Assembly: GCA_037176885.1 (NCBI GenBank)
Contig: JAWWNJ010000102.1
Location: 868,001-932,000, forward strand
DNA: 64,000 nucleotides
From: Favolaschia claudopus
Taxonomy: Eukaryota > Basidiomycota > Agaricomycetes > Agaricales > Mycenaceae
Direction: 5' to 3'
The notes below the pieces were generated by a model, which did no database searches, was not told the origin of the DNA, and worked only from the letters and a program-made list of their open reading frames with translations. The position numbers and the translations under genes are program-made. This document shows, piece after piece, positions 4,292 to 51,453 of the stretch; positions within the stretch are counted from its first letter, which is position 1; every line of letters starts with the position of its first letter.

Positions 4292-7200
4292 GAGACCGCA
4301 AAAAGTAACTTGAGGGTGGTTACTTGTACTTTGATGCCCGGTTATTTTGGCTGGGCGTACGTTGCGTTACTTTACTTTACTTTGATGTACTTTTCCCACG
4401 CTTGGCTAAAGTTACTTTGAGTTACTTGTACTTCTAGGCTTACAATATGACGGCAGAAAAAGACTTTATAGGTCACTTATAAGGTACTAGTAGGTCCTGT
4501 TGATGAATATAACGCGTCTTCACGCCTCTGTGCTCACTCTTTATGGCTAATACTACCGCACTTACTTATCTTCCTGTCCTACACCCCCTTGGCAATGAGT
4601 ATTTGACTTAATGTGGGAGATCAGAGCTGAGAATCTACCTCTGAAAAACAATAGAGCTTGTATTCATCCTGTTCAATTGCTTTTTGTGTCGGACTGAACT
4701 CGTACGGGTTCAACCAGTCAATTACCTAATCCGGAAATCTTCAACCTTGACCCGCAGGTACCGTGTTTCAGACACAAGATGTAGGCTAAAAGGTCAACAA
4801 AGCTCTGAGATGTCACTATCAAGTACAATCTGAGCTTACTGCATCTACTGTGCGTATGTGTATGGCATTTCGGCACTGACTTCTATCCGAACAGCAGCAA
4901 GTATTACTTTGCAACCGTTTGAAGTGCTTCTTACAGTTAAATAGTGCTTGGGGGTACTTTGATGCAACGGATTAGCACAAAGTAGCCTTAACTTGTGTTA
5001 CTTGACTTCAGATTACTTGTACTTTACTTTACTTACCCGCCCAAGTACATCAGCAAAAGTTACTTTTGCCATCAGATGGCATCAATTACCGCCAAGTACG
5101 CAAGTAAATGCAAGTAACTGTAACTTCTCACCCATAATTCGCTATGAAGTCATCCTAAGGACCATATGTAGTCTCCTATATTGTTTCGGAAGCTTCTGTG
5201 ACCTTTACTGGGAGCAGCAAAGCATGTCAAGTATTCCTCAAGGCTCATGCACTGATGTGCAACCGTCTGAAGCACTGTTTGCAGTTGAGAAGTAGCTGGG
5301 GGCGCTTAAAGTGAGGGTAGAGGCAGTGTATGTACCTTACTTTGCCATACTTTACTTGTACTTTGCTTTACTTACCACCCAAGTACCCGGGCAAAAGTTA
5401 CTTTTGCCATCAGATGGCATCAATTACAGCCAAGTAAGCAAGTAAACGCGCCATTTGAGCAAGTAACAGTGATTAAGGAATTGAAATTAGTGCGCATACA
5501 TTACTGAGCCTAATCTATAGCATACTAATTCATTTCTAGTGTTTCCCTGACTCCCTTGGCAAAAGTGTGCGGAATGTAATTTTGCTATCTCACGGTTCAA
5601 CTTCGGTCAAGTATAACTCTCAGTGCTAAAAAGCTGAAACCATAGTGCTGAAACGAAAAGAAAATTCATTCTACAATGAAGAGTGAGTAGTCTAGGTTGA
5701 TTCTCGAATGAATGTGTATCTACTTCTTTGTTGGTGAACTGGTCAAATAGTCTGGGTAATTCTGACGTTTGCCAGACATATTACATGTTCATGGCCATTT
5801 CCATTGAAGGCACTTGCCAAATCAAAGGTAGAGACAATATGACCCTTTGCAGTGCTTGAACACCGAAAAGCTTAGCTTCATCTCGGTGAAATCATAGGCA
5901 ATTGCAATACTCTCCCGGGGTTGCTGTTCAAATTGATCTCAGGAGTGGTGATATTCTGAACTATATTCCCAGCCTTTGCATTGCGAGGGTCACTGAGGGG
6001 CAGAGCACGCAGCTTTTTGGAGGTAAACCAATGAGAGAGGAAGTATATCAGGGTATCATTGCTTGGCTGCCAACACAAATAAATGTGTAACTTATAAGTA
6101 CTGGGGCAACAGTTTGAAACCAGGGACGTGATTTCATCGTGCTGGGGGTTATGGAGTCTGGATCGTATGGGAATAGAGAGTCAAGGTAAGCTCCTGGATG
6201 TGCGGTTTGATGAGGGACTCATCTCATGGAAGAATGCCTAGATTAATCGCCCCGCGAAGCCATTAGCAAGTTTCTCCGTGTTAATTAGAGCGCCATACAT
6301 CCAGACATCATAATCAAGCTGAATTGAATGGTATGTTTCGATAGTAATGATATCCAATATTGGTTGACACGTCTGACATTTCATGATTTTGATACAAGAT
6401 GCGCCTCCGCTTCGCTCCGGCAAATATTTGCCGGCTAACTCTCATCGAATGCTCGACTCAGGCTAACAACCAGCCCTGGGCGAGCGAGAAAGCCACAGAG
6501 CTGGAGGCTACCCAGGAGGAAACGCAGGGAGCAGGCCAGACTCTGACCCTAATTGAGTTTGAAATAAACGAACATCCCACCAGTAACGTCCCATAGCATT
6601 CTCAGTTTGTTGGGATTAGACTCAGACTGATGCACACATTACATAGATTCACTTGGTCTTGTTTTGACAACGGCCGTGCTGTCAAATGCTCCTCGACTAG
6701 GACTTGACTTTCAAGTTGGCGAAGCAAATATTCTATATCACTGAAGCTACGAGCTCGAGCAGAGTACTATCTTGGTTAAATTACTGTGTTGAATGCTATT
6801 GGGATTCGTTCATCACAACAAGTCAAGCCACCGGTCGTCGTAGTCGTTCAGACTGTTTAGGGAATGCCAAGTGCGCCCGTGAATGATCGGTTCTGGATTG
6901 TCGAAGATTGTCGATAGTGATGAATAACGGCAAGATGTGGGACTGTTGAAGAATGTCCGCTATAAAGACGTCTTAAAGAGCATCAGGGCAGTTTCTTCCT
7001 CAAGGTAAAACACTGAGCGACTTGATAGCAAATTTACCCTGGGCGTTGACATTCGCCCTCGTTTAAGGATTTAAATTCTTGTTGAATTAATAGATTAATA
7101 TTCTGAAATTAAGAGGGCAAACGGGACTGGACGGTGGACGGGACCGCCATGAGTGTTGAATATTTCTATACGAGTCTTCTTCGGAATTCTATGAGGTAAG

Positions 7201-43327: not shown

Positions 43328-43844
43328 AGTCGCAGTCCCAATTTGGTAATTGACATTGTCACGTCAGTTTTCATTGAGACATCCTGGGATTGTGTAAATA
43401 GCATTGCAAGAAGGTAAACTACAAACGGACTGGAGCAAAACTTCGAAAAATTGGGTTTCCATGTTTTGCACGGCAATTTCGCGCTTTTGATTGCGGATCA
43501 CTCGGACCGGTGGCTGTGCAGCAGCATCAATGTCGCCTGTAAGAGACTTCACTTTCACTGTGGGGTCCGGAAGTCGGGGTTGCAGAGGCAGAATGCAGAG
43601 AAAGACTTGATTAGCTGCCTCAAATTCGTGAGTTTAGTACACACAAGTTTGGTTTTTCGCTGTTCAAATTTCGCGTTTTGTAACCCTAAGTTAGGAGTAC
43701 CTCCGATTCCTCTAAAATAAAAATTTCGCCTATAAACCATACCCTAGTTCCGGCTAAATCTCGAATCCTGAAGAATTTTGAGCAAAATTGGGACTGGTCA
43801 TGAAGTTTTGGCCGCAACCATACTACGTTGCTACGAGCTGAAAA
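43328..43844. other. Non-coding stretch
   Basis: No gene recognised; only short overlapping frames. Confidence 0.4.
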
Positions 43845-44374
43845 GTCTGGCAAGACTACCGGGATTGGCAAAAGTGATCCGCATCATCACGTGCTCTCAT
43901 CCTCTTTTCGTCTCGCCCGCCTCCACCACTCGTGCTATTTGGCTCGGCGACTCCCTCCCCCTCCCCCGTCGACATTTCGTCTTCTTCATGACCATAGTCT
44001 CGTCCCCCTGCTCCTAGTCTCCATCTCCGTCTGTCAGCATTTTTTCGTCTTCTCTCTTTCCTTTTTTGGGTGCTTGCGCTGCCCTCTTCGTATTCTCCCC
44101 CACCTTCGGCTGGTCGACCTCGATGCCTTCCCTCCGGCCTGGCAGGCTCATCAACACCAACGGACTCCTGCAGTGGCACCATGACGATCGAGGACCTTGG
44201 ACTCCTCCGAGTGATGGAAGAATTTTGATGGAAGCGGTGCGTTTATAGTCATGGACGTGTCACCCCCCCGCTCTGAGGAGCGACAGCGATCAATGATCTG
44301 AGCGTTCGCCGTGATGACGGCTTCCCGTTTGGGCAATATCCGCTCAATAAGGAAGTACCTCCGTATTTTCAGAG

Positions 44375-44702
44375 TAGTGTTGCTGCGAGCTGAGGTGAAG
44401 GAAGTTGGAGGTGCTGATGTATCAAAACTTGATCCACCTCGAGCTGACGTCATCTCGTCCTTGTTTGGAAGTTTGCCCTCAAAAGTTACTTTTTTTGCTT
44501 TGTTTTTATTGCCTGAGTTGCTAGCAGTTTGGATATGCTCCTCAGGAGGAAGCATCTCGTTTTTCTGGTGCTAAGAACTGTTTTTGAGTAACAGATCCAA
44601 AACCGGTCTCGAGGTGCCATCACCTCGATTACCATACGTGGTGGGACTGTACGAGTCGAGGTGAGTTCAGCTCCGAGGTACCTCCACCTCGCGGCAACAC
44701 TA
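44375..44702. mobile_element. 324-bp MITE near the left end of the transposon
   Basis: GTGTTGCTGCGAG(C)TG at 44377 is repeated inverted ending at 44700 (...CACCTCGCGGCAACAC), with TA on both sides. It lies between the transposon's left end and the helicase start codon and so replaces or lengthens the helicase upstream region. Confidence 0.7.
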
Positions 44703-44780
44703 TTTCAGAGCTTCGTCTTGTAGCTCACTCTATGGACTCCCTCTTGTCTCTACTACCCTAATCTACGCATAATACTCAAC
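44703..44780 (+). promoter_or_regulatory. Immediate upstream region of the helicase gene
   Basis: 78 bp between the MITE and the ATG; pyrimidine-rich (CTCTTGTCTCTACTACC) as is common just before fungal start codons. No TATA recognised. Confidence 0.35.
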
Positions 44781-46989
44781 ATGGAATCACATTCGCTCGC
44801 TCAGACGACCTCGTACCCTCAAAATTCAGTGCAATGGATGGAGCACATCTTGTGCACAAGCTGCAAACTCACCCAACTACGGCCCTTCCAGCTCGAACTA
44901 GCAGTTGAAATAAACAAGAAAAACCACGTATTCTGTGTCATCGCGACCGGCATGGGTAAAACTGTGGTTCTCATGGCTGGAGCACTCATGGCCAATGCCC
45001 GAGGAGAGAAGGGTGTCGCGTTACTTATCGTGCCGACAAAGGTTCTGGTGGAACAGCAGGTGTGTTCCTGGACCACTATTATATTCCTACAAGGGCTAAA
45101 CACGCTTTTTCAGGCCGAAGTCGCGTCGCGTCGCGGTCTGCGCGCACTTCCAATCAATCAAGACACGGTTCGTGATGCACGTCTCGCTGGACGTGATCTC
45201 TTCAAGGAACTGGCCGAAGGCGACGATGTCCGTGTGGGGGTGATGACCCCGAAGATGCTCTTCGAATCGGAGATGACGGCGCTTCTCAAGAGCAGCACAT
45301 TTTCCAGCAAAGTCCGTTGGGTTTCCATCGATGAAGTGCAGCTCGTCCGACAGCCGGGAGTCTTTCAGGCCGGCTATAAATCACTCGTATACTTGCATAT
45401 TCGACTTCCGAGCTCTACACTGTATGCTCTAGTCACCGCGACAGCGCCGCCTGCCGAGGCCATCGCCATAGCAAAATCTTTGGGCCTTCATCCAGGCAAA
45501 TATAAAAATGCTCGTTATTCTATCGATCGCCCGAATATCAAGTACATTCCCCGCTTTTTTCAGCACGCGACCTCCAACGGACAGTTCCTGGATGTCAGCT
45601 TCGTCATCCCCATCGACATGGAGGCTGCGGCCGACATAATCCTTACCATCATCTTCGCTGACACCATTATTCGTGGAGACCAACTCATGACGTTCCTGGA
45701 CCCCCTCATCCCAGCGCACATTCCGGGTCGCGAGAACATCATCAAGATGTATAACTCAATCTGCACCTCCGGTTACCGAACACAGCTGAAGCAGGATTTT
45801 GAGTCCGGAAAAGTGCGAATCCTTATTGTAACCGACACGGCAACATACGGATTCGATGTTGCGGGAGTGCGCCGTGTCGTCGTGCTTGACCTCCCCAAAG
45901 ACTTTGGAAAACTTGAGCAGCAGTTGCGTCGCGCAGGGAGGGACGGCCAACCGGCAGAAGCAATCGCGTTTGCTCCCGAATGGGTTCGGGAGCCAGCCGA
46001 AGGCTCTGTTGACGAAACTGTGAAGGGGAAGACTGATGCTGCCCGTCGTGCAGAACTTCCTCCGTCTCTTCTGCGCTGGTTCAATCCCACGCCGCTCCTC
46101 TGCCCTCGGGGAGTCTCGTCGGAGCACAATAATGATGAATTTCAGCCTCGGGGACGTGAATGTTGTGCACCAATTCATGATCCTGACGGGAGCAAAGCCG
46201 ATTTGAATATGGTAGCTCGATGGGTGGAACACTTTCAAGCCAAAGTGGCTAGCGAAGCAGGACCACGGCTGCGCTCAAATGGGACCTATCCGGCACTTGA
46301 GACAGCAATGAAAGAATCCCTGGGTCAGTTACTTGATCGTTGGCGGCATCGGATTTGGGCAGACATTAGACCTTCCGATGACGACCCGTGCGAGTGCTTT
46401 TTGCCGAAGTATGTGATGGATGCAGTTGTAGAGAAGGCGCATGTCTGCACTTCGCTGGAGAATTTGCGTGTTCTTGCAGATGGCTTTGACTACCTGGATG
46501 AGTATGGCCCACAGCTCTTGGTGTATCTAACACACATCCTTGATGGATTCAAGCAAATCTTTGTAGATCGCATCCAAGATGCTAAGCTCAGCGATTCCGA
46601 ATCTGAATCCGAGTACCTCGAGGGATCGGCCTCCTTCAGCGTGGCGCTACTTCAAAACCACGCCACTATCCCGGTTCTCAAACATTATTGTCGGCTCCTC
46701 AATCTCGCAACTGGCGGTGTGAAGTCTGCACTTGTGGATCGGCTCTCCACGGCATTCATTGCGTACACTCTATTTCTTATTTTTATCCTGCATTACACTC
46801 AATCCTCCGATTTGCAGTACCGGACAACAATTTCCCACCAAGGCTGAAATTGCCGACGTGAAAAATAGTCTCATGCAAGTCGATGAGGCCCCGCTGTTAA
46901 ATGTAACCAATCGACCTACACCACCCTCTCCCCTGAAAAAACAAAAACGAAAGCGCGGTGTGGCCCGCGCTGATCTGAAAGAGAACTAA
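44781..46989 (+). CDS. RecQ-like ATP-dependent DNA helicase
   Basis: Starts at the ATG at 44781. An in-frame 54-nt intron (45060-45113) joins VLVEQQ to AEVASRRG, and a second (46763-46817) leads to a basic tail with PLKKQKRKRG, a likely nuclear localisation signal; unspliced, it would stop at 46847. Helicase motifs: Walker A ATGMGKT (about residue 57), SIDEVQLV (motif II with DEVQ for DEAH), TATAPP (motif III), RILIVTDTATYGFDVAGV (motif V) and EQQLRRAGRDGQPAEA (motif VI with both arginines). The family unwinds DNA 3'-5' using ATP. The C-terminal half has an acidic Ser stretch (SDSESESEYLEG) and a possible SAP-like piece (LATGGVKSALVDRL). No break was seen. It lies convergent to the DUF6589 gene inside the transposon and may serve its transposition. 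Confidence 0.8.
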
Positions 46990-47078
46990 TACTTTACTAA
47001 TCACTTTACATTCAATTTGTCTATATTACGAAGTCGCAAACCCAGTTATAAAATTGTCTACTTGACCAATCCCATCAG

Positions 47079-50000
47079 TCATCGTGACTGGACAAGCTGG
47101 TCAGACCATTCATAGAGGAAATTGCAAGCCAGTTCAAGGAGCTCATTTCCGTAATTGGTTGAACCGGCACCCCAAAATGAAAATCGCAGAAGCTAGTGTC
47201 GATAAGCGTAATGATACAAAGATTATCATATTATGACACCTGCCTTAATGACTTCAAAAACACGACCGATATCGCCCTCTGCAACGGCGGAACACAGTTC
47301 AAGATACCAAAATGTCATTCGCATGAAATTGCAGAGCGTGACCATTACTTGATCTCCAGCATCGAGAAAATTGCGCGCAGGTGCAGCGCTTACTTTTGCT
47401 CGGGCTCTTTTCTTTTTTCTAGGTGGAGCAGTCGACTGTTGAGGTGCCTCAGAAGCGATGCCTGCAAATTCAACAATCAATTAAATGATAACAAACTGTA
47501 TTCAGCCGTACCTTCATTATCCGACTCGTCAACCGTGCTGCTGCTATTCCATGCCGGACCATAGATATCTGGGCGATCCTTGTGTCCCAGTGCCACCTCG
47601 GCTGCTGCGTTGGTCATGTATCGTTTATAAACAGTGTCTGCCAGTTCCTCGAGTTTCTCGAACGAGCAGTCCTCGAAATGCCCCTGCGGGCTAAAATAGG
47701 GTTGGATAGCATCAAGCAATTTGATTTCGGGTTCGTTCGCAACACCAGTTGCCTCCTCGCATAGCAATCTGAGGATCCGGATGAACAAAGGTATAATACA
47801 ACTGTCCAAATTGACTTACCGTAAGGCATCTAGGACCACAGTTTCAAACCGATCCTCAAGGATGTGATGTGCGGGATAAAAATCGCATTTTTCAGGATTG
47901 AACTTCCCGCGATCAAGCAGCTGGCAGTCATAGTGCAGCCCAAAAATGCCAGTTCCGAGTTCGTGATGCCAATGAAGACGAAAAATACACTTTTGCCAGT
48001 TCCATTTGAGGTGCCACAGTTGAATGACAGGAAACGCCCATTCATATCGCTCGAAAGGATTATTTCCCTTTCGGCTGCACCAGCGTAACTTCCGAATACG
48101 ATCGATTGTGAGTTGATCGCCACAGATCATAATCCGCCATCGGTCGAGAGTTTCTGGAATTATAGACAGTTGACCAAGCAGATTTAACAGAACAGAGGCG
48201 ACACCCGCAGTGGAAGATTCATCGATGTTGGTGGGACGCGCTGCATGTATCTCAGACTTGCGTAACTGGAGAACATGCTTTCGATATTTTGACAAAAACA
48301 AATTTTCCACCGCAGATCGGTGGGAGTGTAGAGCTGGGATGTACTTGAGCCAGATTCGAAGGACTGTGCCTTTTCCGATCCCCCGAATGTGCACCCAATC
48401 GATGTCATCATACAATTGTTTCACCGTCAGGTTTTTCCGCTTCTTCTCTTGAAAAGCCTTCCGCAAAGGCTCTGAGAGAAATGCGCCAGCGCGAACACCA
48501 ACCAGACGAATTACAGTTGCAGCTGTACCACTTTTAACCTCATCTTGATGGCCCAAAGTGGGCCGCCATGCTCGTTTCATTTTATTGACATTGTCAAAGA
48601 GGAGGAGAAACAGGGGGCCTGCATTTGGATTAAATGCCCCCAGCAGACGCAGTTGGGAAGCTGAATCCGCAGCAAGGACATGAAGTTGGGCCAGGATCAT
48701 GGAATACGAGACCGAGAGACCCAGCCGACATAACAAAGCGATGATGTCGCGGTGGGCGTTGCACGTGAAGAGGAAGATACCGACAACGATGGGAAGAAAG
48801 ATTGCAAAGCGGTTTCGGAAAACCAACAGTGCGAGAATGAACACTGTGACTGCCTATGAACGAATATTAATATTCCAATCATCGTAATTTGAATAACAAA
48901 AACATAGCACCTGCCAAGGATCCCGTCTTCCAAGAAACTCGGGAAAGATTTCAGATTGATCATTCTGTTCATTTTCTTCGCTATCTGAGTCGTTCTCGCC
49001 ATCCGATTCCTTTTCAGAGCTACTAATTGACTCGGGACTCGGCCTCGAGGGCGAACCTTGATCAGAAGAGCCTTCCGACTCGTCCGAGCTGGGTGCAAAT
49101 GGGAGGGGGTCAGGTGGCCCTGCAGAATCGAGATTCGAATCCTCTGGTCGATCTGGGTTTGCAATAAGCCCTGCGGTGGCTTCGAGGTTGGCTCGTGCAT
49201 TGCGATTGACGGCGATTGTTGTAAAGAGGGTGAAGATGGCGGGCGCGTGAAAAGAAACAGTTTCTTGTGTGCGCAACATGTCCAAGAGCAATAGCATGTC
49301 CCAAGTAAGCGGGGCATCCTTCTTTCGACGCAGAAATCCATGAGTAGGAAGGAGAAGCTCCCGAGTTTCTATTTCAAAACGCCTGATCATGCCCAATTGA
49401 TCATGGCATTACGGGTCGTATTCTCGGCAGGAGATGGGATAAGAGCTTCGAGTCGAACAGATGGAGGTAGTGCATAACGGGGAACCTCAAAGTTGGGTTC
49501 CACGGGCACACCGTCAATGTAATCCTGGGATTTCCGATGCTCAAAAATGAGCTTGATGATGGCAATGGGATGGTTTTGAAGTCGCTTCTCCTTCGCTCGA
49601 AGAAACGATGCTATAGTGTGATAAACTGTCGGATGCTTGTTGAAGTCATTGCGGAATAATTCCGCTAGAAATTCCCCGAGAGTCGAGAAGCCGGCTCTTT
49701 TGATTGCTCGCAGCACCACTAGAACTCGATCCTCCACAGAAACCTCAATCCCCGGGGGCCATTTGAATTGTGTACGTTGGCGTCCTCCTAGAGCTGTGTC
49801 TGGAATGATCCCGTTGAACAGATCATGCGCAAAAGCCTCTGCCATTTGTTTCCTAAGGCTTTCAATCGGTGTGACAAGCGCAACGGAATTCGGTTCCGAT
49901 TCGACGTCGGGTTCGGTGGATTGATCTCCAGACTCGGTGGATTGAGCTCCCAGTTCAGCAGAATGATGATATAGAGGTGTATAATGAACAGGGTGAAACC

Positions 50001-50295
50001 CATACAGAGGACTCTGGAAGGAAGAAGTAGCAGCATATGTAATCAGAGATGGCTGGTATAGCTGAGGTGTTGGGCCAGAGAATGAACTTGTATGGCCAGC
50101 ATAGTCGGCGGGGACCCGGGAAGGTGTCTCGGGTGTGTGTAGTAGCTGGAATTCGTGTATGTAGTGCATGTACGACTCGGGAGAGGTTGTAGCTGATTCA
50201 TCTCGATCCCGGCCTTCACTCGCATTATTGACTCGGAATTGGTGCTGTATAGGCGAAGAGGTGTCAAAATTGATAATCGACTCCTCCCCGGACAT
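47079..50295 (-). pseudogene. DUF6589 protein, candidate transposase, decayed
   Basis: Exon 1 (ATG at 50295) is Ser/Pro-rich, then VEDRVLVVLRAIKRAGF and PVEPNFEVPRYALPP. The frame stops after NTTRNAMINWA (49387) while family-like sequence continues one frame over (IRRFEIETRELLLP...), so a one-base frameshift lies near 49393. Introns at about 48845-48909 (joins DPWQ to AVTVFILAL), 47766-47818 and near 47470-47515 keep the frame, as does 47193-47239. The core has LFLLLFDNVNKMKRAW, VKSGTAATVIRLVGV, DIDWVHIRGIGKGTVLRIW and MICGDQLTIDRIRKL; acidic positions in FDN and GDQ could be catalytic. It ends SFWGAGSTNYGNELLE...SDQLVQSR, short of the family's C-terminal part (from memory). Family recognised without a search. 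Confidence 0.65.
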
Positions 50296-50459
50296 GGTAG
50301 CAAGAGAAAACGCGGAAGAACGCGAGGTAGTTGTAAAGTGAGCGCGTCTCGGACGTACTTCCTTTTTGAGTGGATTCTTCCAAAACGGGCAGCCGTCATC
50401 ACGCCGACCTGTTCATCATTGATGGATGTCGCTCCTCAGCGTGACCCCTCGACAAATCC

Positions 50460-50511
50460 AAGACTTTATATACGTTTGAACGACTATCTTCAAAAGAGTA
50501 TATAAAGTCTT
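50460..50511. repeat. Subterminal palindrome of the transposon's right end
   Basis: AAGACTTTATATAC (50460-50473) and GTATATAAAGTCTT (50498-50511) are exact inverted repeats around a 24-base loop containing CGACTATC. The corresponding motifs occur in the same order at the left end of the 11240-11802 element. Confidence 0.8.
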
Positions 50512-50532
50512 GTTACGAGACTAGTGCGTTTA

Positions 50533-51453
50533 CAGATTTGCTGGGGTCACAACCGTTTGGGAGGCTACTGGGATGGACGCCGCCGGTGCCCGCGACGCCA
50601 TGTCTGCTCTCATTGCGGGAGCTCCCACCACACTGCACCCTTCTGCGCCCGTCGGACCTCGAAACCCCCGGAAGTAGCTCGGCCAACTCCGTCGCAGGAA
50701 AATCCCCCTGACGGCGCGTTATCAAAGCCGGGTGAGCTGTCTGTCTCGAGGTTCTGCCAGTTACCATGACCTCGAGCAATTGTGCGGCCATCTGGTGTTT
50801 GCCCAGTCCGTTATACCTGTCCGTCGCTTCTTCACTCGCCGCATCCGCGACTTCATGCGTACCCTTGCCCTCCTCCCTCGCCATCTCCGACGTCGCCTCC
50901 CCTCCCCCGCCAAGCTCGATGTTGTGTGGTGGAACACGTTTCTGCCCACCTTCAATGGCATCTTTGAGATTCAACCTCCTCGAATCAGCTTCGAGGTCTT
51001 CACTGATGCTAGTGGGAAACTCGGTATTGGTGGCCATTGGAAAAGCAGTGACATCTTCTTCACTGAGCCGGTGCCAGCCAGGTACCGCCGACATCCAATT
51101 CACTGGAAGGAGATGTATGCGGTCCTTCGAGCTGCGGAGATCTGGGGTCACTGTTGGTCAGGTTTTGAGATTGTCTTCCGCATTGATAATGAAGCTATCT
51201 CCACCTGCCTGCAGTCTGGCTCCATTGATCACCCTCCCACTCAGGCCCTGTTCCGCTGCCCTTCTGGCGGTACGCCACAACTTCGCCTTCCGCTTCCTCT
51301 GGATCCCAACCGACGAGAACTCGGTCGCTGATGCTCTCTCGCGCTTCAAGTGGCTTTCCCTCAGCCAGTCGCATCCCCACTGGCCCCTCCCAAAATCTGG
51401 AACGCGACCTGCTCATGTTGCCATAGCTGTCCCGTCAATTGTTGTTGACATCT
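50533..51453 (+). pseudogene. DIRS copy 2: ORF1 zinc cluster and RT/RNase H remnant
   Basis: LQICWGHNRLGG...RCPRRHVCSHCGSSHH is the ORF1 Cys/His cluster. About 100 bp later the frame enters YHDLEQLCGHLVFAQSVIPV, the end of the RT domain, then FEVFTDASGKLGIGGHW, HWKEMYAVLRAAEIW and FRIDNEAISTCLQSGSID of RNase H. The catalytic RT core and everything between ORF1 and RT are deleted. A frameshift near 51265 interrupts RNase H before the expected DENSVADALSRF in another frame. No recombinase follows. Confidence 0.82.

Follow-up and report, generated by a model that had tools for sequence, protein, structure and literature searches.

The locus examined here raises the question of whether a 6,278-bp segment within a 64,000-nt stretch of the Favolaschia claudopus genome (hereafter the window) is a DNA transposon and, if so, which of its two genes moves it and to which lineage it belongs. 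An earlier reading of the letters alone (the sequence-only reading) had noted a segment limited by TAGTC and GACTA, and had proposed that a protein of the DUF6589 family is its transposase and that a RecQ-like helicase assists.

Element boundaries and terminal structure

The proposed limits were confirmed in the window sequence, where the transposon starts with TAGTC at 44246 and ends with GACTA at 50523, and the same perfect 9-bp word lies on either flank. The boundary features are as follows:

44237 to 44245, no strand: left 9-bp target-site duplication GTGCGTTTA, read from the sequence and present as a single copy at paralogous sites
44246 to 44374, no strand: left transposon end (TAGTC...), element bases 1-129, defined by copy comparison
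44273 to 44363, forward strand: left subterminal inverted repeat, pairing with 50350-50439
44375 to 44702, no strand: nested 328-bp MITE (TAGTGTTGC...GCAACACTA) with its own 8-bp duplication
50350 to 50439, reverse strand: right subterminal inverted repeat, pairing with 44273-44363
50440 to 50523, no strand: right transposon end (...GACTA), holding a 15-bp inverted pair (50459-50473 / 50498-50512)
50524 to 50532, no strand: right 9-bp target-site duplication GTGCGTTTA, read from the sequence

The diverged inverted ends described earlier were also recovered. They are mostly subterminal (element positions 28-118 against 6105-6194, 83% identity) and consist of two blocks, 44273-44297 / 50415-50439 at 92% and 44306-44363 / 50350-50407 at 84%, and the inverted match at the extreme tips extends over only about 5 bp. 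Element bases 1-129 were complete, or nearly so, in every deletion derivative having a left end.

The nested MITE is flanked by the 8-bp duplication TTTCAGAG (44367-44374 and 44703-44710), is placed upstream of the helicase start and is missing from the C120 copy. Together with a frame change in the DUF6589 gene (see below), it amends the earlier description in two places.

Copies, derivatives and empty sites in the host genome

The host assembly (264.6 Mb, 460 contigs) was searched with the element DNA. Among the best 40 of 613 candidates, at least three whole-length copies were found: the window copy, C102:940063-946341 (99.99% identical to it over 9.3 kb, flanks included) and C141:439088-445343 (99.5% identical, with a 22-bp deletion). 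A 4.6-kb copy was located on C120 in the same search, and the two ends recur in a set of short derivatives, of which the 11 that were fetched measured 593 to 1357 bp. Given that full-length copies and many shorter copies with the same ends occur in its own genome, segment 44246-50523 is a genuine DNA transposon rather than a chance arrangement. The C114 derivative (L048) retains only the last 51 bp on the right side, which places a bound on the right-end sequence needed in cis.

Both ends were present in 16 of 21 regions (20 fetched plus the window); L044, L045, L049, L052 and L057 have one end only and stand outside the duplication count. The sequence-only reading had proposed a search for further copies with 9-bp duplications, and such a duplication was found in all 16 (those of L055 and L056 were read from flanking sequence). 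The second C102 copy has the same flanks as the window copy and was treated as a duplication of that site, so that 15 sites count as independent. After C86 and C59, two relatives of the C1 element, were added, the 9-bp duplication was present at 17/17 independent sites, the ends of these 17 insertions having been placed by homology. Two more distant elements with a DUF6589 and a helicase gene (L061 and L063) have a perfect terminal inverted repeat of at least 40 bp; their 9-bp duplications confirm the anatomy and not the length, because the search demanded an exact 9-mer.

That same reading had named gene pairs lacking terminal repeats or duplications in many genomes as one outcome that would speak against its proposal. 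In this genome, three fetched loci with both genes (L059, L060 and L062) gave no ends under a strict filter, which failed to detect the ends of C1, C86 and C59 as well. This filter, which makes for a weak negative, likewise gave no ends for the short DUF6589 loci, namely L031 (4.7 kb) and eight of 4.1-4.6 kb (L001-L008).

Empty sites were sought by joining the window flanks. Of 40 listed matches, 36 are at other places in the genome (73-86% identity) and read across the junction with no element between. Four of these 36 sites were read: the duplicated word is present once in L064 and L065 (with an extra T in L065), both of which have nine additional bases slightly upstream that are absent from the window's host copy, and L070 and L071 have diverged at the junction word. 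The site of the C64 derivative is empty on C11 (97%) and C16 (96%), with GTCTCGGCC single on C11. The single copy predicted for empty sites was thus found in the genome itself, at L064, L065 and C11. For the C120 copy, no spanning empty site occurred among 44 matches listed.

The RecQ-like helicase and DUF6589 genes

The two genes of the window element are convergent, in agreement with the earlier description:

44781 to 46989, forward strand: RecQ-like SF2 helicase gene, three exons, 699 aa, reading frame intact
47079 to 50295, reverse strand: DUF6589 (PF20231) putative transposase gene, NCBI model R3P38DRAFT_2800870 (end coordinate 47079 counted from the exon start)
47133 to 47144, reverse strand: candidate catalytic glutamates (NYGNELLEL), in a predicted helix
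48116 to 48118, reverse strand: second putative catalytic aspartate (GDQLT), directly after a predicted strand
48593 to 48595, reverse strand: first putative catalytic aspartate (FDN), in a predicted core strand
49385 to 49395, reverse strand: reading-frame shift in DUF6589 relative to the related C1 element, common to the C141 copy

Positions of the putative catalytic residues come from a manual count beginning at the exon start, and that of FDN was checked against the sequence.

The helicase gene, which had been called apparently intact, has an open 699-aa frame interrupted by two GT-AG introns (45060-45113 and 46763-46817). Its protein matches DEAD, Helicase_C and a C-terminal SAP domain, and contains the words GMGKT, DEVQ, TATAP and QLRRAGRDGQ, which we take to be helicase motifs I, II, III and VI, respectively. 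The nearest solved chains in a PDB chain comparison are RecQ proteins. Compared with four relatives (C1, C86, C59 and C30), dN/dS was about 0.10-0.13; these values are rough because dS was at least 1.7. The gene is under purifying selection.

The DUF6589 gene has exon blocks 50295-49391, 49390-48911, 48853-47820, 47768-47512, 47461-47244 and 47192-47079, with an apparent GC-AG intron after block 47461-47244 and a frame change near 49390 without a recognisable intron. Its main exon matches PF20231 in Pfam (E 2.2e-48). Against the same four relatives, dN/dS was 0.03-0.22 in exons with unsaturated synonymous change, and DUF6589 is likewise under purifying selection. Single stops interrupt RecQ and the main DUF6589 exon of C86 as well as the first exon of C59.

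Structure prediction gave DUF6589 an RNase-H/DDE-transposase fold, as the sequence-only reading had suggested looking for. The closest solved folds identified by Foldseek were the hAT (Hermes) and P element transposases, a comparison that covers Foldseek-ranked folds only, so that the absence of other folds from it is uninformative. The aspartates singled out in that reading proved to be conserved and fall in or just after predicted core strands: in two alignments, the FDN aspartate is D in 54/56 and 61/63 rows (the remainder being gaps) and the GDQLT aspartate is D in 54/56 and 63/63 rows. The NYGNELLEL word, in a later helix (residues 683-699 of one predicted structure and 898-914 of another), has two glutamates at a spacing of three residues, either of which is a candidate, and each is E in 54/56 and 61/63 rows. 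Judged by the predicted fold and these residues, DUF6589 is very probably the RNase-H-fold DDE transposase of the element. The DUF6589 profile had 0 matches to PDB sequences up to E 10, and scans of viral contigs with profiles from the two alignments gave 71 and 27 pattern matches, none of which was confirmed.

Pairing of the two genes across the genome

In order to define DUF6589 loci, 117 matches (best 102 of 601 candidates) were merged by hand into 102 loci, a set that leaves out the window's own element, C120, C86 and C59:181540. RecQ-like matches were taken from the best 65 of 364 and the best 150 of 297 candidates. A RecQ-like match lay within 5 kb of 66 of the 102 loci versus about 0.75 expected by chance, on which basis a chance neighbourhood was rejected; the DUF6589 and RecQ-like pair sought beyond the window is therefore recurrent. 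The count is a lower bound because only best candidates were used and because the helicase of L063 was missed, this locus being scored as a miss although a helicase domain adjoins its DUF6589. Of the 66 pairs, 54 are convergent, 12 divergent and none same-strand. Ten of the divergent pairs are clear, including the C26/C22 subfamily, and the other two lie in the C24 tandem array, where a RecQ-like match is about equally near on either side. For this transposon family, a reading as independent host genes without an element was rejected by the ends, duplications and empty sites.

Classification of the element

AcademH was reportedly recognized by Kojima in 2020 as a lineage of the Academ superfamily. 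A member of it would be expected to have relatives both in fungi and in animals. RecQ helicase in Academ was listed among transposon-encoded proteins by 2013 (in a passage of PMC3627910), and a passage of a 2019 paper (PMC6416283) states that most fungal Academ copies have recognisable domains, such as DEAD/DEAH helicase and recQ_fam, and owing to these are often annotated as host genes. Excerpts of later papers describe AcademH as having a helicase and 9- or 10-bp duplications, versus 3-4 bp in AcademX (PMC10045372, citing Kojima 2020), as being present in Basidiomycota, Ascomycota and Mucoromycota (PMC10799480), and Academ as encoding a DDD/E transposase (PMC9587614). The statement in the sequence-only reading that no described superfamily has this pair was consequently mistaken, RecQ in Academ and AcademH being already in print in the passages of PMC3627910, PMC6416283 and PMC10045372.

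The present element resembles AcademH in being a fungal helicase-encoding DNA transposon. It makes a 9-bp duplication at each of the 17 independent sites, a RecQ/SF2 helicase gene is present in the window and beside 66/102 DUF6589 loci, and the predicted fold and conserved D-D-E residues correspond to a DDD/E transposase. Because RecQ in Academ/AcademH, 9-10-bp duplications and fungal occurrence had already been published, the element was filed as an AcademH-type class II transposon, a placement by features matched to published descriptions that we hold with considerable confidence; published fungal families may likewise carry DUF6589. Similarity to the fungal Academ copies in the passage of PMC6416283 lies in a transposon-encoded RecQ-type helicase often annotated as a host gene, a comparison that covers the helicase domains.

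A separate, undescribed DDE superfamily, unrelated to Academ transposases and resembling AcademH in RecQ and 9-bp duplication by convergence, was the strongest of the alternatives and is nevertheless unlikely. In the literature searched no paper named DUF6589, and the sole PF20231/IPR046496 paper was off-topic; its identity as a transposase may therefore be unreported, which would suit such a superfamily. DUF6589 is also without mention in PMC12730594, and database members among the matches listed are annotated as hypothetical or DUF6589 proteins. Homologues with species names among those matches were all from Agaricomycetes, a range resting on the best matches listed (120 in each of two listings). 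KolobokH shows that a further superfamily has also taken up RecQ (in a passage of PMC9587614). Against this, a DDE-type transposase, a RecQ-like helicase and a 9-bp duplication coincide with AcademH, and AcademH is reported from the same phylum (in an excerpt of PMC10799480). Were the alternative to hold, an Agaricomycete DUF6589 superfamily would have joined with RecQ apart from Academ, making at least three recruitments (Academ, Kolobok and DUF6589), and the helicase may set the 9-bp stagger; we regard this scenario, too, as improbable.

A Mutator-like (MULE) or hAT/P-type element with a captured host RecQ gene is highly improbable. MULEs commonly produce 9-bp duplications and the closest solved folds are those of hAT (Hermes) and P. 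The Pfam model for MULE / MuDR is the MULE transposase domain, and PF20231 was the sole Pfam match at the thresholds used (E ≤ 0.1 in P0002 and P0118; E ≤ 0.01 in P0123 and in P0121, the window's own model). P element duplications are 8 bp, and we know of no hAT or P element with RecQ. Those of hAT are usually 8 bp and those of Zisupton also 8 bp (in a passage of PMC12730594), versus 9 bp in 17/17 here, by which hAT, P and KDZ/Zisupton were rejected. A one-off capture is further opposed by the RecQ-like match beside many divergent DUF6589 genes and by selection on RecQ.

A Kolobok-type element (KolobokH), although a fungal DNA transposon lineage with a RecQ helicase, was rejected as having a negligible chance of being correct, since the relevant passages of PMC9587614 give a 4-bp TTAA duplication and a RecQ downstream of the transposase domain, whereas here the duplication is 9 bp at 17/17 sites with no TTAA rule and the helicase is on the opposite strand in 66/66 pairs. 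Helitrons, which have neither TIR nor target-site duplication (in a passage of PMC4522978), were rejected by the inverted ends and 9-bp duplications. Subtelomeric fungal RecQ helicases are similarly multi-copy RecQ-like genes; in the passages of PMC7473861 and PMC4522978 they are telomere-linked, with no transposase or duplications reported, whereas the RecQ gene here is inside a bounded transposon.

Activity and proposed mechanism

The 99.5% identity of the window and C141 copies indicates recent movement. These two copies are identical across the DUF6589 frame-shift stretch, and in the C1 element the frame reads through near the window's shift, with no stop in the exons examined. Judged from its frame, the transposase of the window copy is probably broken. 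Because this frame is shifted, the simplest account is that transposase was supplied in trans by another copy, and the family of the window copy has probably moved in this way.

For an AcademH-type element, movement would be by cut-and-paste rather than by replication. Assemblies of DUF6589, whose second aspartate and glutamate are predicted to be separated by an insertion that is largely helical, would bind and recognise TAG(T/G)C-type ends, and cleavage by its D-D-E site at those tips would excise the element. The freed ends may then attack target strands staggered by nine bases, with gap repair giving the 9-bp duplication. A conserved accessory, the RecQ-like helicase from the gene on the other strand, would most likely open the ends or resolve or repair cut or gapped intermediates; alternatively, its task could be stripping of the transposase complex.

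Implications

PF20231 (DUF6589) is a large family, with at least 102 loci in this genome. If DUF6589 is a DDE transposase, many supposed mushroom host genes, and neighbouring RecQ-like genes too, would be transposon genes. This family, in which ends are conserved and short derivatives occur together with long copies that are nearly identical, would provide a system for asking why DDE transposons retain RecQ.

Insertion site and nested MITE

The host DNA around the RecQ/DUF6589 element (window 43800-44245 and 50533-51331) is itself a repeated element: when the joined flanks were searched against the own genome, 36 of the 40 matches fell elsewhere. Nine bases a little 5' of the target word, the host 9-mer duplicated at the insertion, are present in two paralogues of this repeat and missing from the window's host copy. 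An ORF in the right host flank (50678-51331) was judged by eye to resemble an RNase H domain; a search for a Pfam match to it returned none.

The element in turn contains a MITE, with the RecQ start a short way downstream of it:

44375-44702, nested MITE, 328 bp, TIR TAGTGTTGC...GCAACACTA, 8-bp duplication TTTCAGAG

At least 13 more matches to this MITE were listed in the own genome by DNA search (best 40 of 613 candidates), 10 with 97-100% and three with 91% identity. The MITE is absent from the 4.6-kb C120 copy of the element and, among the fetched loci, from derivatives (short deletion copies) retaining its junction; at this junction L055 carries different sequence.

Related loci and copies

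The RecQ-like partner of DUF6589 is divergent, not convergent, at L059 (C26), C22, C29, C73, C59:598708, C117, C141:91131, C42, C190 and C9. Element ends and duplications were not found at L059 and L060 using a strict filter, which also missed the ends of C1, C86 and C59.

On C102, the window's contig, the element (912246-918523) recurs at 940063-946341 in opposite orientation with 99.99% identity. This inverted repeat takes in at least 1.5 kb of flank on each side, has its symmetry axis near window 61,293, and represents either a palindrome created by the assembly or an inverted duplication of large size. In three derivatives, L044 (C54), L045 (C80) and L052 (C128), the right end is missing and the left flank is the same; they are probably a single insertion spread as passenger of another repeat.
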